A stretch of 64,000 bases of DNA from Niveispirillum cyanobacteriorum. Its GTDB lineage: Bacteria > Pseudomonadota > Alphaproteobacteria > Azospirillales > Azospirillaceae. The translations under genes and the position numbers were made by a program. Of the stretch, positions 2,362 through 62,402 are shown piece by piece. Where the stretch lies: the NCBI RefSeq assembly GCF_002868735.1, contig NZ_CP025611.1, forward strand, positions 800,501 through 864,500, in the 5' to 3' direction. Position 1 is the stretch's first letter. Every line of letters starts with the position of its first letter. The notes under the pieces are model-generated. The model saw only the letters and a program-made list of their open reading frames with translations. It made no database searches and was not told where the DNA came from.

Positions 2362-2410
2362 CGCAGCAGACATCAGACCAGGAGAGCATACCACCGGTCA
2401 TCTCCATGAC

Positions 2411-15500: not shown

Positions 15501-16328
15501 CTGATGATCAATTTCCTGCGTGAATTGCCGCCCCTTCTGGATGTGGAGGACGCGCTGAAACGGGCGGATGGCAATCCCGATCTGCTGCTTCGGCTTTTGG
15601 ATGGATTCGCGCGGCAGCAGGGGGCGGATTTCCTGCATCTGCGTACGGCGATCCAGGCGCGCGATGCGGACACCGTCCTGCCCATCTTGCACACACTGGC
15701 CGGTACTGCGGCCAGCATCGGTGCCGCCGACCTGGGCGATCAAGCCCGCGCGGTGGAAGACATGATGCGCTCCGGCCATGATCACTGGGCCGCTTCTGTT
15801 GAGCCCGTGCTGGATCGGCTGTCGGCTATCCTCGCCCGGCTGGCACAGCGGCCCGCCCAAACGCCGGAGTATGAGGCGACAAACACAGCCGCGGTGCCTT
15901 CGGTGGAACCGGAGGCACCGCATATCCTGGTGGTGGATGATAACGACATGAACCTGACCCTGGTGACCAGCGTGCTGGCCCGCGCCGGGTACCGCGTCAG
16001 CCAGGCACTGTCGGGGCAGCAGGCCATCGATGCGGTTGCGGACACGTCGTTCGATGCTGTCCTGATGGATGTGCAGATGCCGGGCATGGATGGGGCCGCC
16101 GCGACACGTCGTATCCGTTCCCTGCCGGGACCGGGCCGGCATGTACGCATCATCGGCATGACGGCAGCGGAACGGTCGCGGGCATGGCCGGCACTGGCGG
16201 TGGCAGGCATGGACGGCTTCATCGGCAAGCCCTTTACCGCCACCTCCCTGATCGATCAGGTCCGCGCCGAAATGTCATCGCCCCTGATCCGCGAAGAAGA
16301 GGATGAGGAAGAGGGGCAGGGTGTCTGA
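12510..16328 (+). CDS. Membrane hybrid sensor kinase: PAS-HisKA-HATPase-REC-REC-HPt-REC
   Basis: A large phosphorelay protein of about 1272 residues. The first 200 residues hold about six hydrophobic segments. PAS-like regions follow (one around [15 protein letters not shown]). The HisKA box SHEIRTPMN has its phospho-His at about residue 479. The HATPase boxes NAIKF, DTGIGM and GTGLGL follow. Three receiver domains carry Asp in [17 protein letters not shown] and [10 protein letters not shown]. Between the second and third receivers an HPt domain shows [12 protein letters not shown]. All canonical phosphoacceptor residues are present, so an internal His-Asp-His-Asp relay with an extra terminal receiver is plausible. 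The start is uncertain: GTG 12510 is preferred because the similarity begins near there, but an upstream GTG at 12393 keeps the frame open. No partner regulator is adjacent. Confidence 0.9.
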
Positions 16329-22561: not shown

Positions 22562-24337
22562 TTGGCCAAACCGATCATTGTGCCCGCCGTCAAGCGTACG
22601 ACCCCCACCGGCGCCTTGCTGCGCCGTCTCTCCGGGGCCTATCTGGGGCCATACAAGCCGAAGCTTTTGGCGGCCCTGCTGCTGATGGCGCTGGAGGCGG
22701 CGGGGACCGGGGCGGTGGCCTGGGGTTTCCAACCGCTGCTGGATCGCGCGTTCCAGCCGGACAATCACGGTTTCCTGCTGCCCTTCGCGGCCCTGATCAT
22801 GGCGGCGTTTTTCGTGCGTGGCACGGCGGCCTATGGCCATTCGGTGCTGGTCAACCATGTGGGGCAGCGCATCGTGGCGCGCATCCAGGCCCAGGTCTAT
22901 GGCCACCTGATCCGTTCCGACCTTGCCTATCTCCATGGCCGTGCCTCCGGACAGTGGATTTCGCATCTGGTCAATGATGTGAACCAGATGCGGCTGGCCG
23001 TGTCGGAATGCCTGACCGGGGCCGTCAACCACAGCCTGACGCTGGTCGTGCTGGTCGTTATGATGTTCTATCAGGATTGGCGCCTGGGCCTGATCGCCTT
23101 TACCGTGTTTCCCGTTTCGGGCTGGTTCCTGGGGCGTCTGGGCAAGCGTCTGCGCCGCATCGCGACCAGCCAGCAAACGGAACTGGGCAATTTCTCCGCC
23201 GTGCTGGGCCAGACCTTCCAGGGTGCCCGCCATGTGAAGGCCTATGGCATGGAAGCGCATGAAGAGGCGCGGGTGGGCATCACCATTGACCGTCTGCGCA
23301 AGCTGACGGCCAAAAGCTACCGCACCGGCGCCTCCATGCTGCCCATCAACGAGATTTTCAGCGGTGCCGCCGTCGTTGGTGTCATCATCTATGGCGGTCT
23401 GGCCATTGCCGACGGTACCCGCACCGCCGGACAACTGGTCAGCTTCATCGGCTCCTTCATGCTGGCCTATCAGCCCATGAAGGCCCTGACCAAGCTGAAT
23501 GCGCAATTGCAGGTCGGGCTGGCGGCGGCGGAACGGGTGCTGGGCGTGCTGGACATGCCCCCGTCCATCACCGACCGACCCGGTGCGGCAGCGCTGCCAG
23601 CGGATGCCACGCACGATATCCGCTTTGCGGGCGTCCATTTCTCCTATGATGGGGAGAAGGAGGCCTTGGACGGCGTGGATATCATGGTGCCGGCGGGCCG
23701 CACGGTGGCCCTGGTCGGGGCGTCCGGATCGGGCAAGACGACGGTCCTGAACCTGATCCCGCGTTTTTATGAGGTCACGGACGGGTCGGTTACCGTGGCA
23801 GGGCACGATGTACGTGACCTGACCTTATCCAGCCTGCGCGCCTCCATCGCTCTGGTCGCCCAAGAAACCGCCCTGTTCGACGACACGATCCTGGCCAACA
23901 TCGCCTATGGCCGCCCCAGCGCCAGCCGGGCGGAGGTGGAGGCGGCAGCCCGTGATGCGGCGGCCCATGAATTCATCATGGAACTGCCCCATGGCTACGA
24001 CACCGTGGTCGGTGAAATGGGCCTGAAACTGTCGGGCGGACAGCGTCAGCGCATCGCCATCGCCCGCGCCATGTTGAAGAATGCGCCCATCCTGCTGCTG
24101 GATGAAGCCACCTCGGCGCTGGACAGTGCGTCCGAACGCGCGGTGCAGGATGCGCTGCGCCGTCTGGCGGCGGGCCGCACCACGCTCGTCATCGCCCACC
24201 GGCTCTCCACCATCGCTGATGCCGACCACATCTATGTGATGGATCAGGGCAGGGTGGTAGAGCAGGGGACGCACGCCGAACTGCTGGCCGCCGGTGGGGC
24301 CTATGCGCGCTATCAGGCGCTGCAGGGTGGCGCGTAA
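22562..24337 (+). CDS. MsbA-like ABC exporter (fused membrane and ATPase domains)
   Basis: A half-transporter of about 591 residues. Six membrane segments occupy the first 310 residues. The nucleotide-binding domain has Walker A GASGSGKTT, signature LSGGQRQRIA, Walker B ILLLDEATSALD and the H-loop VIAHRLST. It belongs to the MsbA/lipid A-multidrug family and would act as a homodimer in the inner membrane; lipid flipping is possible but unproven. The start is not certain: TTG 22562 gives a conventional N terminus, while GTG 22523 extends it by 13 codons with no ribosome site. It is convergent with plsY, with 1 nt between stops. Confidence 0.9.
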   Translation: MAKPIIVPAVKRTTPTGALLRRLSGAYLGPYKPKLLAALLLMALEAAGTGAVAWGFQPLLDRAFQPDNHGFLLPFAALIMAAFFVRGTAAYGHSVLVNHVGQRIVARIQAQVYGHLIRSDLAYLHGRASGQWISHLVNDVNQMRLAVSECLTGAVNHSLTLVVLVVMMFYQDWRLGLIAFTVFPVSGWFLGRLGKRLRRIATSQQTELGNFSAVLGQTFQGARHVKAYGMEAHEEARVGITIDRLRKLTAKSYRTGASMLPINEIFSGAAVVGVIIYGGLAIADGTRTAGQLVSFIGSFMLAYQPMKALTKLNAQLQVGLAAAERVLGVLDMPPSITDRPGAAALPADATHDIRFAGVHFSYDGEKEALDGVDIMVPAGRTVALVGASGSGKTTVLNLIPRFYEVTDGSVTVAGHDVRDLTLSSLRASIALVAQETALFDDTILANIAYGRPSASRAEVEAAARDAAAHEFIMELPHGYDTVVGEMGLKLSGGQRQRIAIARAMLKNAPILLLDEATSALDSASERAVQDALRRLAAGRTTLVIAHRLSTIADADHIYVMDQGRVVEQGTHAELLAAGGAYARYQALQGGA

Positions 24338-24338
24338 A

Positions 24339-24953
24339 CTACGCCGCGTCCTTCTTCTTCGCCCCGATCTTCGGCTCCTCGCCCTTCAACAGGCGGGCGA
24401 TATTGTCCTTGTGGCGGATATAGACCAGCACCGCGATGAACAGGCACAGGCCCGCCACGGCGGGACCGGCCAGGAACCAGGCCACCACCGGGCTGGCCCC
24501 CACGGCGATCAGGGCGGACAAGGACGAGATACGGAACAACACCGCCGCCAGCAGCCAGGTGCCGCACGCCGCCAGCCCCACGGGCCAGGAAATGGCCAGC
24601 AGCACGCCCAGCGAGGTGGCAACCCCCTTGCCGCCCTTGAAGCCCAGCCAGACCGGGAAGCTGTGGCCCAGCATGGACCCCGCCGCCGCCGCGATCCCGG
24701 CCTCCGTACCCGCCACATACAGCGCGATCAGCGTCGCGATGGCGCCCTTGCCGCTATCCAGCAGCAGGGTGGCCAGCGCCAGCGGCTTGTTCCCGGTGCG
24801 CAGCACATTGGTGGCGCCGATATTGCCGCTGCCGATCTGGCGGATATCGCCATAACCGGCAAGCCGGGTCAGGACGAGGCCGAAGGGGATGGAACCAAGC
24901 AGATAGCCGCCGATCAATGCGAGGATCAGCGGCAGCGGGGAGAGATCGGCCAT
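24339..24953 (-). CDS. plsY: Glycerol-3-phosphate acyltransferase PlsY
   Basis: A 204-residue inner-membrane enzyme that transfers an acyl group from acyl-phosphate to glycerol 3-phosphate, the first step of phospholipid synthesis with PlsX. The family motifs SGNIGATNVLRT, GHSFPVWLGFKGGKGVAT and the C-terminal R-H-K-DNI are present between about five membrane segments. It lies 32 nt downstream of the pyrC-like gene, an arrangement common in alphaproteobacteria (pyrB-pyrC-plsY-dprA), although pyrB and dprA are not here. Confidence 0.97.
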   Translation of the reverse strand: MADLSPLPLILALIGGYLLGSIPFGLVLTRLAGYGDIRQIGSGNIGATNVLRTGNKPLALATLLLDSGKGAIATLIALYVAGTEAGIAAAAGSMLGHSFPVWLGFKGGKGVATSLGVLLAISWPVGLAACGTWLLAAVLFRISSLSALIAVGASPVVAWFLAGPAVAGLCLFIAVLVYIRHKDNIARLLKGEEPKIGAKKKDAA

Positions 24954-36520: not shown

Positions 36521-36544
36521 ATGGTCAGTCAATATGCCCATTAA

Positions 36545-36620
36545 AGGTGGCCGCCCGGCGGCCCGCGCCATAGGGCGCGTAAGCCAAGCCGCCGGATGGC
36601 GGCGCCTGGCGTTTGAGGGA
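36545..36620 (-). repeat. Three-hairpin 3'-UTR element, copy 2
   Basis: Second copy of the dispersed element. Plus-strand hairpins are GGCCGC-CCG-GCGGCC, CGCGCC-ATAG-GGCGCG and GCCGCC-GGAT-GGCGGC, with linker TAAGCCAAG and tail TTTGAGGGA. The third stem differs from copy 3 (GGGCGC/GCGCCC) at four base pairs, all compensated. It ends 6 nt from the stop codon of the minus-strand sugar dehydrogenase gene. Confidence 0.8.
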
Positions 36621-36626
36621 ACACGT

Positions 36627-37802
36627 TTACTTTCGGTCGATGCGCACCAGCTTGCCATCCGTCCCCGGCGCTTCGATCAGGGCGTACAGGCGGCCATCCG
36701 GCCCCTGGGCCACGTCGCGGGTGCGGGGTAGTTCGTTCTCCAGCAGGCGTTCGGTTGCCACCACCTTCTCGCCCTCCACATCCAGCCGCGCGATGCCGCC
36801 GGCCAGCAGCCCGACGATCAGATCGCCGCGCCAGAAGGGCAGGGAGCCGCCATCATAGAAGGTCATGCCGTTGACAGCCAGCGACGGCACGAAATACAGC
36901 TCCGGCTGCACCATACCGGCCTTTTCGGTGCCTTCACCGATCTTCAGGCCCAGACCATAGGTCTTGCCATAGGTGATGACGGGCCAGCCGTAATTGGTGC
37001 CGGGGCGGATGATGTTGATTTCATCCCCGCCCTGCGGCCCATGCTCGCTTTCCCAGATCAGGCCGGTGCCCGGCTGTGTAGCCAGCCCCTGCGGGTTGCG
37101 GTTGCCATAGGTGAAAATCTCCGGCAGTGCATCGCTGCGCCCCACGAACGGGTTGTCGGCGGGCACGGTGCCGTCGCGGTTCAGGCGGAACACCTTGCCG
37201 GCGGCATCCATCAGGTCCTGCGCCCGGTCCTGCGATCCGCGCTCCCCGATGCTGAAATAGATATGGCCTTGATTGTCAAAGGCGAAGCGGCTGCCGAAAT
37301 GGAAGCCGCTATCCACCAGCGCACCCTTGTACAGGACCTTCATATCCTTGAACGAGGTGCCATCATCGGTAAAGCGGGCGATAACGGTGCGGTTGCCCTT
37401 GTCCTGATCGCGCGGCTTGGCGTCTGGCCCCTTCACGGCCTTTTCGATGAAGGACAGATAGACATAGCGATTCTGGGCGTAATCGGGGTCCAGCGCGATA
37501 TCCATCAGACCGCCTTGCCGCACCTCCTCAATTTTGGGCAGACCCGTGATCGGTTCGGGTAACAGCTTGCCATCTTTCACAACGCGCAGATTCCCGGTGC
37601 GCTCGGTGACCAGGATGCGCCCATCGGGCATGAAGGCAATGGACCAGGGCGTGTCCAGCCCTTCCGCGATAACCGTCACCTTCACATCGTGCCGGGCCTT
37701 CGGCGCCGGAAAGGTTGTGAATTCCTTAGGCGCGGCAAGGGCGGCGGTGCCAGCCAACAGAGTGACGGCAAGGGCGGCCAGAACCTTTCTGGTCAGGGAC
37801 AT
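36627..37802 (-). CDS. PQQ-dependent aldose/sorbosone dehydrogenase-like protein
   Basis: A 391-residue protein with a Sec signal peptide (LAVTLLAGTAALA) and a six-bladed propeller of the soluble glucose / YliI-type aldose sugar dehydrogenase family. Visible family stretches are LDTPWSIAFMPDGRILVTER, the histidine in DSGFHFGSRFAF, SIGERG, TYGNRNPQGLA and WESEHGPQGGDEIN. It is predicted to oxidise aldoses in the periplasm with PQQ; no PQQ biosynthesis genes are nearby. The stop codon is followed 6 nt later by repeat copy 2. Confidence 0.92.
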   Translation of the reverse strand: MSLTRKVLAALAVTLLAGTAALAAPKEFTTFPAPKARHDVKVTVIAEGLDTPWSIAFMPDGRILVTERTGNLRVVKDGKLLPEPITGLPKIEEVRQGGLMDIALDPDYAQNRYVYLSFIEKAVKGPDAKPRDQDKGNRTVIARFTDDGTSFKDMKVLYKGALVDSGFHFGSRFAFDNQGHIYFSIGERGSQDRAQDLMDAAGKVFRLNRDGTVPADNPFVGRSDALPEIFTYGNRNPQGLATQPGTGLIWESEHGPQGGDEINIIRPGTNYGWPVITYGKTYGLGLKIGEGTEKAGMVQPELYFVPSLAVNGMTFYDGGSLPFWRGDLIVGLLAGGIARLDVEGEKVVATERLLENELPRTRDVAQGPDGRLYALIEAPGTDGKLVRIDRK

Positions 37803-41504: not shown

Positions 41505-41960
41505 TTATCGACGCCACATAGTCACATGCGGGATGCCACCATCATCATAAGGCGGGCCTTCGGTGACAAAGCCGAAACCGGCATAGAAGTCGGCCAGATG
41601 AAGCTGCGCGCCAATCTCGATCGGCTGCCCCGGCCATGTCCGGTCCATGAAGTCCAGCCCTTCCTGAACCAGCCGCCGGCCAAGTCCCGTGCCGCGCCCC
41701 GCCGGGCCCACCACAATACGCCCGATGAAGGCCGGGCTGTCCCCGTCTGGCCCTCGTGCACGCAGATAGGCGACCAGCACTCCGGCTCCATCCGTGACCA
41801 GCAGATGCTGACAAAAGGGGTCCAGCCCGTCCAGGTCAGGATAGGGCGACTGCTGCTCCACGATGAACACATCCTGGCGGAAGCGCAGCATGGCGTAGAG
41901 GCTGGCGATGTCGAAATCGTCGAACCGCTGCCAGCTGAAGTTCAAGCCAGCGATCATCAT
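41505..41960 (-). CDS. ElaA-like GNAT acetyltransferase
   Basis: A protein of about 151 residues of the GNAT N-acyltransferase superfamily, resembling ElaA. SWQRFDDFDIASLYAMLRFR near the N terminus and FIVEQQSPYPDLDGLD are ElaA hallmarks, followed by the acetyl-CoA loop VGPAGRGTGLGRRLV. ATG 41960 (or the adjacent 41957) is the proper start; longer in-frame extension would translate the repeat element and has no homology. No ribosome site is clear, so the hairpin element just upstream may influence its expression. Substrate unknown. Confidence 0.87.
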   Translation of the reverse strand: MMIAGLNFSWQRFDDFDIASLYAMLRFRQDVFIVEQQSPYPDLDGLDPFCQHLLVTDGAGVLVAYLRARGPDGDSPAFIGRIVVGPAGRGTGLGRRLVQEGLDFMDRTWPGQPIEIGAQLHLADFYAGFGFVTEGPPYDDGGIPHVTMWRR

Positions 41961-41970
41961 AGATGACCGT

Positions 41971-42050
41971 TGGTGGCCGGCGACGGCCGGCCCGCGCCTT
42001 GTGGCGCGTGAGCCAAGGGCGCGCAGGCGCCCGCCCGGCGCTTGAGGGGA
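41971..42050 (-). repeat. Three-hairpin intergenic element, copy 3
   Basis: Third and most regular copy. Plus-strand hairpins are GGCCGGC-GACG-GCCGGCC (7 bp), CGCGCC-TTGT-GGCGCG (6 bp) and GGGCGC-GCAG-GCGCCC (6 bp), with linker TGAGCCAAG and tail CTTGAGGGG. It begins 13 nt after the stop of the single-domain regulator (minus strand) and ends 10 nt before the elaA start, so here it is between two same-strand genes. Confidence 0.82.
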
Positions 42051-42063
42051 CAAGAAATCGCGC

Positions 42064-42480
42064 TCACCGCCGGGTACTCAACAGCACGGCCAGCTTCTCC
42101 CGCAGGCCCACCACCGTCACCGGCTTGGCGATAAAGGCATTCACGCCCAGATCGCGGGCCTTCAGCACCATGTCCTTCTGGGCATGGTTGGTCAGGAAGA
42201 TGACGGGTGTGCGCCGGCCCAGCTCTTCCTTCTGCCGCAATTGCTGCAGGAAGGTCAGCCCGTCCATGGGCGCCATCTCGATATCGCAGATGATCACGTC
42301 GGGCTTGCGTTCCAGCGCCAGGGTCAGGCCGCCAGTCCCCTCATCCGCCTCAAAAATCTGATTGAATTCAAGCTGCTTCAGGATGCGGGACACGACGGTC
42401 CGGATGAAGGCCTGATCCTCAACGATCAGGGCATTCATACGACTGAAGCTGCTGAAACCCACCATCGCACTTTTCCCCAT
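42064..42480 (-). CDS. Single-domain response regulator
   Basis: A stand-alone receiver of up to 138 residues: NALIVEDQAF, phosphoacceptor Asp in ICDIEMAPMDG, Thr in FLTNHA and Lys in IAKPVT. Alternative ATGs at 42465 and 42438 are in frame; the domain itself starts at the last. It lies 48 nt downstream of the cytoplasmic hybrid kinase and probably receives phosphate from it. It is followed by repeat copy 3. Confidence 0.9.
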   Translation of the reverse strand: MGKSAMVGFSSFSRMNALIVEDQAFIRTVVSRILKQLEFNQIFEADEGTGGLTLALERKPDVIICDIEMAPMDGLTFLQQLRQKEELGRRTPVIFLTNHAQKDMVLKARDLGVNAFIAKPVTVVGLREKLAVLLSTRR

Positions 42481-51538: not shown

Positions 51539-52305
51539 GCCGCATCTCCCCCGCCGCGCAGGCGCGACAGCAATTCACCCTGCTGCATCAGCAACGCCTG
51601 CTGATCCGGTGCGCGCGGCGTATCGCCAGCGGGGGTCAGCGGCGTGGACAGACGCGCCGGGGTACCGCTCAAGACGAATACCTGATGGCCCAGGCGCAAG
51701 GCCTCCATCGGGTCATGCGTCACCATGATGACCGTTCGGCCCGACAGAAGGCGCGCCGCAAGGTCCTGCATATCCAGCCGGGTGATGGCGTCCAACGCGG
51801 AAAAGGGCTCGTCCATCAGCACGATGGGCCGGTCTTCGAACAGGGTGCGGGCCAGGGCCGCGCGTTGCCGCATGCCACCCGACAGCGCATCTGGTCGGTC
51901 GCCTGCGCGATCCCCCAGACCGACATGGTCCAGAAGGTTCATGGCCCGCGCCCGCTCCGCAGCACCCACCCGGCCTCCCCGCAGCTTGACGCCCAGCGTC
52001 ACATTCTCCAGCACGCTGGCCCAGGGCAGCAGCAAATCCTGCTGCCCCATCCAGGCGATGCGGCCAGACAGCGGTTTGCCATCATCGGCGGTGACGGTGC
52101 CTGTACCGGTCAGCAGCCCGGCAATCAGGCGCAGCAGGCTGGATTTGCCAACCCCGCTGGGACCCAGCAGGCAGGTGGTCATGCCCCCCGGTGCCCGCAT
52201 CGACAGCCCGCTGAACAGCAGACGCCCACCAAAGCCGATGGCGGCGTCGGAGACCTGGATGGCGGGGGCGGGCGGGGCGATCGCGGGCCCCGGAACATCA
52301 ATCAT
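51535..52305 (-). CDS. thiZ: Thiamine-precursor ABC transporter ATPase ThiZ
   Basis: A 256-residue ABC ATPase: Walker A GPSGVGKSS, Q-loop region MGQQDLLLPW, signature LSGGMRQRAALAR, Walker B IVLMDEPFSALD and switch His in VTHDP. SsuB/ThiZ-like. It is the first gene of the operon. Its ATG is 5 nt beyond the riboswitch P1 stem, and the only Shine-Dalgarno-like sequence (AGGGA) lies inside the aptamer. Confidence 0.93.
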   Translation of the reverse strand: MIDVPGPAIAPPAPAIQVSDAAIGFGGRLLFSGLSMRAPGGMTTCLLGPSGVGKSSLLRLIAGLLTGTGTVTADDGKPLSGRIAWMGQQDLLLPWASVLENVTLGVKLRGGRVGAAERARAMNLLDHVGLGDRAGDRPDALSGGMRQRAALARTLFEDRPIVLMDEPFSALDAITRLDMQDLAARLLSGRTVIMVTHDPMEALRLGHQVFVLSGTPARLSTPLTPAGDTPRAPDQQALLMQQGELLSRLRGGGDAA

Positions 52306-52309
52306 GGAT

Positions 52310-52397
52310 CACTGTCCCTACGCCGGTATCAGCCGGATCAGGTTCCAGGGGTCGTCCCGTACAGGACCTCTCAGCCGACCATCGGCTCCCCCCAGTG
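52310..52397 (-). promoter_or_regulatory. TPP riboswitch (thi box)
   Basis: The minus strand holds the conserved thi-box parts in order: GGGGGGAGCC, GGCTGAGAGG, ACCCCTGGAACCTGATCCGG and ATACCGGCGTAGGGA. Terminal CACTG/CAGTG pair as P1. The last conserved segment GTAGGGA also supplies the ribosome site, with a 9-nt spacing to the thiZ ATG. Binding of thiamine pyrophosphate should therefore hide the site and turn off the transporter operon. Confidence 0.97.
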
Positions 52398-52526
52398 AGG
52401 TTGGTTGGTTATGGCAAAGCGTTGAACTGGCTGCAAGGTCATTGGTGCTGACGCTGGTCGGGTCAATGGTTCTTGCGCAAAGATGCAAGCCGTTATCAAA
52501 TCACCCTATCGGAAACAGGAGAAACC

Positions 52527-62281: not shown

Positions 62282-62402
62282 TGCAGCCTTGTTGTGTTTG
62301 GATGCTGAGGAAGGCGCCGCTATAGCATGTTTGTCATGTCCGACATAGGGGGCAACTGTATCGGCCTGTGATGGCCATCACAGGTTATCGACACTGCTCA
62401 CC

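Follow-up and report, generated by a model that had tools for sequence, protein, structure and literature searches.

A dispersed multi-hairpin element with a covarying core, often abutting stop codons, in Niveispirillum cyanobacteriorum and its relatives

Three copies in the window and their parts

The stretch of DNA analyzed here (the window) comprises 64,000 nucleotides of Niveispirillum cyanobacteriorum (NCBI RefSeq assembly GCF_002868735.1, contig NZ_CP025611.1, positions 800,501 to 864,500 of the forward strand) and holds three copies of a dispersed element, all on the plus strand and each followed by the stop codon of a minus-strand gene. The original prediction, made from the letters of the window, described an element of about 80 bp consisting of hairpin A, hairpin B, the linker TRAGCCAAG, hairpin C and a tail, and this shared layout was found in all three copies. 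The same three loci were recovered with a covariance model, R1, built from 18 gap-free copies of this genome that were aligned blind to structure and given their structure by hand; its placement shifted the predicted limits (2411-2492, 36545-36620 and 41971-42050) by a few bases, to those given below. A size of about 80 bp holds for the core, but the element is longer, copies 1 and 3 having a further hairpin, D, on the 5' side of A.

The core of copy 1 spans 2416-2497 (+; R1, 96.8 bits), with hairpin A at 2418-2424/2429-2435, hairpin B at 2436-2441/2446-2451, the linker at 2452-2459, hairpin C at 2460-2465/2470-2475 and the tail at 2476-2491. Upstream, hairpin D (2391-2416, +; CCACCGGTCAT-CTCC-ATGACTGGTGG) was recognized in the sequence and folds as a stem, and a TACC end lies at 2389-2392 (+), preceded by GCA and hence without an intact TNA. 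Both the core and hairpin D are also present in G010, the genome of a sister species and the closest relative found, with 90-94% DNA identity over the window. The neighboring gene, a superoxide dismutase gene on the minus strand, has its TAA stop at 2497-2499, read as TTA on the plus strand (this gene and the neighbors of copies 2 and 3 were named from Pfam).

Copy 2 has its core at 36544-36625 (+; R1, 86.5 bits), with hairpins A at 36549-36554/36558-36563, B at 36564-36569/36574-36579 and C at 36588-36593/36598-36603, the linker at 36580-36587 and the tail at 36604-36619, ahead of the TTA stop (36627-36629) of a minus-strand GSDH gene. In its hairpin A the stem is shifted and has 6 bp, closing a loop of 3 nt. 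What looks like the right arm of hairpin D (TGCCCATTAA) lies at 36535-36544 (+) with no left arm seen; judging by the likeness of this arm to hairpin D of locus L022, it is apparently all that copy 2 retains of D. Copy 3 carries hairpin D at 41947-41973 (+; CCAGCGATCAT-CATAG-ATGACCGTTGG, from sequence and fold) and its core at 41973-42054 (+; R1, 89.3 bits), with hairpins A at 41975-41981/41986-41992, B at 41993-41998/42003-42008 and C at 42017-42022/42027-42032, the linker at 42009-42016 and the tail at 42033-42048; the stop of the adjoining minus-strand response-regulator gene, TCA, is at 42064-42066. At the sites of copies 2 and 3, G010 carries no insertion and has 14 and 9 other bases, respectively.

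Between copies 2 and 3, four base pairs of hairpin C differ with both sides changed in the alignment, as predicted. Hairpin B, which had been said to keep its stem while its loop varies, does so with one exception, a G-G mismatch in copy 1 (CGCGCC/GGGGCG) that is absent from the G010 orthologue, where the stem is perfect. RNAalifold additionally pairs an invariant GCC in the linker with GGC in the tail. When copies were folded singly as RNA, copy 1 alone adopted the full proposed structure (D, A, B, C). For copy 3 the best prediction retains D and A and pairs B and C otherwise, and that for copy 2 departs further from the proposed structure. Folding z-scores were -4.4 (copy 1), -1.6 (copy 2) and -4.3 (copy 3). 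Because single folds fit in copy 1 only, the case for the structure rests on comparison between copies.

The element had been thought to belong to no named family, and we found none: Rfam gave nothing above the gathering threshold at the window copies or at ten other loci, and likewise nothing at a relaxed threshold, the best weak matches around copy 3 reaching 13.9-17.5 bits against thresholds of 45-92; literature searches gave no description, though such absence is not proof. An ordinary TPP riboswitch (Rfam RF00059, 78 bits) lies in the window at 52298-52402 (-).

Copy number, covariation and distribution

Searching the genome with the covariance model returned 94 copies at E<1e-4 in 6.05 Mb, after which scores drop, so that the predicted dispersal extends well beyond the three window copies. 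The covariation first proposed from those three copies was borne out by a tree-aware test, in which nine column pairs were significant and all nine fell in the proposed stems, distributed across hairpins A, B and C; the alignment tested (92 of the 94 copies, with duplicate rows and rows of >15% gaps dropped) had been fitted to the structure of the model and so was not structure-blind. The test resembles R-scape, with a FastTree tree, parsimony substitutions randomly re-placed per branch, a GT statistic with APC, and 60 null alignments. The free alignment of 18 copies gave four significant pairs, three in the structure and one beside it, and among the 19 best-scoring pairs 12 lie in the structure in the model-fitted 92-row alignment and 8 in the free 18-copy alignment. 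Across the 18 copies, 98.5% of the 342 stem cells pair, both sides change in 11 of the 19 pairs, and the copies reach a covariation score of 0.462 where shuffles average 0.120. The loop GGAT, the linker AGCCAAG and the tail are conserved across copies whose stems vary.

At E≤0.01, R1 gave matches in each of the 11 congeneric genomes searched, in 17 of another 24 from the family and in 3 of another 24 from the class. In an evenly drawn sample of the class, 14 of 190 genomes matched at E≤1e-7, including this genome and one congener. Hosts among the matches listed include Nitrospirillum, Niveispirillum, Azospirillum, Oleisolibacter, Roseomonas and relatives, as well as Magnetospirillum, Telmatospirillum and some Sphingomonadaceae, and genomes of several genera hold dozens of copies each; 88 of the 120 R1 loci among the matches listed went into one later analysis. 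The patchy distribution suggests horizontal spread or repeated loss. A plasmid search returned one weak match within a coding gene, judged to be chance, and a phage search for the element returned none. Tandem copies exist, with five at 108-bp spacing on a prophage-like contig. Loci L349, L350 and L340 belong to one prophage-like IMG/VR contig, on which tandem arrays stand between apparent phage genes; stems B and C differ in some units of these arrays and the rest is nearly identical.

Element ends, target duplication and stop codons

The limits of the whole element were read where similarity ends between closely similar copies scattered through other genomes (those of an uncultured Rhodospirillales MAG, of Azospirillum sp. 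RU38E and of Aerophototrophica), at TACC on one side and GGTA on the other. A full copy runs TACC-hairpin D-A-B-TRAGCCAAG-C-GCCCGGCGYYTGAGGG-hairpin E-GGTA. The sequence of hairpin D differs widely among copies yet is palindromic in most of those inspected, and hairpin E is found downstream in many copies. Among 33 copies with both ends recognized, the flanking trinucleotides are identical in 16 (shuffle mean 6.3, p = 5e-5) and not identical in 17; all 16 are TNA, and the flanks agree over 4 bp in none of the 33. Full copies mostly measure 145-175 bp with the duplication, as do the 16 TNA-flanked ones, and some measure 105-116 bp. A scan for TNATACC...GGTATNA pairs with equal TNA, in DNA mostly chosen for carrying or surrounding the core, yielded 33 pairs (32 distinct), 26 of the 33 spaced 140-179 bp apart, against 3 in a reversed-motif control. 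In the N. cyanobacteriorum genome itself, a strict pattern recognizes the left end in 14, the right in 11 and both in 5 of the 94 copies (one of these five, own34, is unlike a true pair), and the copies there are mostly worn.

A second subfamily (II), with few copies, has the same core between TAGAGC...GCTCTA ends, and the core is therefore not tied to one end pair, the strangest trait of the family; a target duplication was looked for in this subfamily and none was established. In another subfamily (L149, L155, L142, L164, L175 and L080) hairpin B is replaced by a conserved CCGAGTTAATACGAGG with no clear hairpin, and some of its copies contain internal tandem units.

The comparison with G010 covered 1.48 Mb, within which 33 of the 94 copies were comparable and 61 were not. 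Fifteen of the 33 sites are empty in G010, 10 are occupied, 2 are partial and 6 hold other sequence; the empty sites contain 0-19 other bases, and a clean 3-bp duplication is absent in most of them. At three comparable insertions with intact ends, the unoccupied genome has TNA once in every case, and in all three it forms the in-frame stop codon of the gene on the left, a stop that the duplication rebuilds. Two are insertions of N. cyanobacteriorum copies at TAA stops; G010 likewise reads TAA at one of these sites, and TGA at the second. The empty target site at 16326-16328 of the window (+) is the TGA stop of a gene ending at 16328 and is occupied in G010 by a shortened copy, running from TACC to GGTA between two TGA; three G010 copies have both ends intact, and for one of them the N. 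cyanobacteriorum DNA across the site was compared. The family has apparently been active since the two sister species separated. Truncation at the 5' end, as in retroelements, was considered and rejected, there being no clear bias and few copies cut at either end: half-models matched 44 places in the 1.48 Mb of G010, 24 with both halves, 1 with the 5' half only and 19 with the 3' half only, about 15 of which read by eye as whole copies.

Two other palindromes were noticed in G010. One, dispersed and about 100-130 bp long (GTAGGTCAGGT...ACCTGACCTAC), is absent at window 24330-24340 and has five pattern matches in the N. cyanobacteriorum genome (C1:397062, C1:909606, C1:1541733, C2:833887 and C3:112955), that at C1:909606 directly adjoining a copy of the element studied here. 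It begins with GTAG, as some REPs do (PMC3733652), while no Y1 transposase was found in that genome. The other, an inserted palindrome of about 90 bp (GTCGCATGCG...CGCATGCGAC), stands in G010 and is absent at window 62384-62401.

The position of the element relative to genes was assessed with a purpose-written, simple codon-usage gene caller, trained on the window and applied also to other genomes; neighbor counts cover 93 of the 94 copies, one without a neighbor call being omitted. An opposing gene lies on the tail side of 66 of the 93 copies, and for 45 of these 66 the distance from the core to the stop of that gene is at most 10 nt (median 6). Where a gene starts on the tail side (27 copies), the core is within 10 nt of the start in 3 (median 105). 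At the thresholds used, 64 of 93 copies abut at least one stop and the other 29 abut none. The TNA flank is exactly the predicted stop in 10 of 58 cases at the left end and in 6 of 73 at the right. Of the 93 copies, 31 lie in convergent gaps, compared with about 13 expected by number from the 49 intergenic regions of the window; 11 copies are in divergent gaps, without a nearby stop; and in co-directional gaps the tail points toward the stop in 35 copies and hairpin D in 16 (p 0.011). The pattern TNA includes the stop codons TAA and TGA, as well as TTA and TCA, which are these same stops seen from the opposite strand, and therefore any TAA or TGA stop can be entered with the protein unchanged. 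The stop-adjacent pattern could come from purifying selection alone.

Mobility of the element and maintenance of its structure

We consider it probable that the element is a small non-autonomous, MITE-like DNA transposon that is moved in trans and whose structure is kept for its own spread. Of five MITE traits examined it has four, a partner transposon being the one lacking. It is short, non-coding and present in many copies (94); it has terminal inverted repeats, the short TACC...GGTA, clearest among similar copies in other genomes; it has a target site duplication (TNA, in 16 of 33 copies and at three sites); and it is polymorphic between empty and filled sites (15 of 33 empty in G010). As outlined in the parts of the literature that treat them, bacterial MITEs such as RUP and Correia/NEMIS are non-coding, shorter than 200 bp and equipped with terminal inverted repeats and target duplications, and they are high-copy, intergenic and form stable stem-loops, as is the case here (PMC2229807, PMC10969869). 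The present element differs from them in being G+C-rich, in its very short TACC repeats and its TNA duplication, often at stops, and in having independent covarying hairpins with conserved linkers and not one end-to-end stem. YPAL/RU-2 of Yersinia, compared by description and not by sequence, is summarized as a 168-bp element that is not A+T-rich and has internal inverted repeats and empty and filled sites, with duplications of 3 to 26 bp and in other hosts (PMC2229807).

Insertion at TNA would duplicate those 3 bp, as the flanking repeats and the three empty sites indicate. An insertion within a stop codon would rebuild the stop and leave the protein unchanged, and could thereby survive; surviving insertions would leave the element abutting stop codons, an account that may be general and is drawn from three cases. 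A transposase acting on the terminal inverted repeats probably moves the element in trans, and the TNA duplication suggests an IS5-like enzyme. The hairpins, the invariant linker and the tail may be kept because they are needed for spread, whether they work as RNA, as an array for protein binding or as single-stranded DNA in folded form.

The eight IS4/IS5-type loci found in the N. cyanobacteriorum genome were examined for an autonomous transposon with matching ends, and none of the eight shows TACC ends: one group has GGGTC ends at CTAG-like sites, one locus has GGTGG/GGCCG with TA, and at one further locus ends were sought and none found. Another of these loci, an IS1031-like insertion sequence, has GAGCC ends and a TCA duplication. 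IS1031 elements use a TNA target, and a summary account of the group describes recognition of three nucleotides. Duplications of 3 bp are given, in the portion of PMC4482050 that lists them, as TWA in PIF/Harbinger and TNA in NuwaII, and that of bacterial IS5 as ANT, not TNA; IS5 and PIF/Harbinger elements encode a transposase, and the IS ends found here (GAGCC, GGGTC) differ from TACC. A search of 3.25 Mb (overlaps included) found no longer TACC-ended element of 600-2600 bp with at least 12 of 18 terminal matches; one TACC-ended pair, 2438 bp apart, was seen with 6 matching bases. Neighboring ORFs were clustered around 229 copies, and in the 25 largest clusters, read by eye from partial sequences, no transposase, reverse transcriptase or integrase was recognized; one of the clusters consists of an open frame that crosses the element.

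The original prediction took the covariation as an argument for selection on structure, which fits the comparison between copies; orthologues, in small numbers, show no compensatory change. At two of the ten occupied sites (own indices 8 and 44) only a small part of the core aligns; these two were dropped, and the eight copies left in place in both genomes give 142 stem pairs. These contain 11 single changes (six still pair and five do not, read without direction) and one double change, which is non-pairing, with no compensatory pair. Substitutions in the shared copies amount to 13/284 in stems, 25/352 in the unpaired core (p 0.24) and 86/1280 in sampled flanks. The data are little and give no sign of the host holding each copy, which fits a structure needed by moving copies. 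If selection is responsible, it thus seems to act on the mobile lineage and not on each locus, because orthologues show no compensatory change.

If the host instead kept the structure, as an RNA module serving as a terminator, as an insulator between convergent genes or as a stabilizer of mRNA 3' ends, one would understand the enrichment in convergent intergenic regions, the greater stability of copies 1 and 3 over shuffled sequences when folded, and the slightly lower substitution of stems than of the unpaired core, which is not significant. The excess of G-U over A-C cells in the stems of this genome (35 versus 10), as expected of a plus-strand RNA, points the same way, but it disappears in other genomes (28 versus 27). 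Together with the fast turnover of sites and the lack of a compensatory pair in the eight shared copies, this makes a host RNA module unlikely in our estimation. Nor is the element a classic intrinsic terminator, because the consensus lacks a U-run after any hairpin.

Perfect stems can also arise without selection, when template switching in a hairpin makes one arm from the sequence of its partner and covariation is mutational. Hairpin D, largely unrelated in sequence among many copies yet palindromic, would be explained in this way, as would several stem differences that are blocks of adjacent pairs (GGGCGC to GCCGCC), although single-pair differences also occur. The constancy of the GGAT loop, the AGCCAAG linker and the tail despite stem variation points instead to constraint on the core, and no two-sided repair is seen between orthologous copies; we judge this origin of the covariation improbable.

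By anatomy, the nearest described family is the CcrM-associated intergenic repeat (CIR) of Caulobacter and relatives, here compared by the description in a review and not by sequence; in that description, CIR belongs to the same bacterial class, is about 110 bp long and intergenic, and consists of stem-loop arms with a linker and a conserved GANTC site (PMC2229807). GANTC occurs somewhere in 52 of 135 contexts of other genomes, but in the N. cyanobacteriorum genome it is in 1 of 94 cores and in 7 of 94 when 40 nt on either side are included, and its density is 0.46 per kb compared with 0.56 in flanks. CIR has two arms where this element has three to five hairpins, together with the terminal repeats and duplication described above. 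Since the element is not built around GANTC, we do not assign it to CIR, and membership appears very unlikely. Movement by a RAYT/Y1 transposase is more doubtful still: REP/RAYT elements are likewise dispersed extragenic hairpins, high in copy number and placed behind genes near their ends, but the present element is larger, with several hairpins and terminal repeats with a TNA duplication, and Y1_Tnp (PF01797) has no match in the N. cyanobacteriorum genome at E≤0.001, the same profile being positive in 5 of 14 control genomes.

With the MITE-like transposon as the preferred reading, a broader proposal can be put forward tentatively: that this is a class of element whose TNA target makes the stops of either strand a safe landing place, in which a covarying multi-hairpin core is common to differing termini and is a module recognized by dedicated machinery and not passive filling. 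The element is a real mobile hairpin family for which we found no description, and it is unusual both in how it relates to stop codons and in how conserved its covarying core is. It offers a concrete and testable route by which a mobile element can fill a compact genome harmlessly, by entering a stop codon and rebuilding the stop. Clean covariation, the usual sign of a functional RNA, can also mark a mobile element, which is relevant to RNA discovery pipelines.
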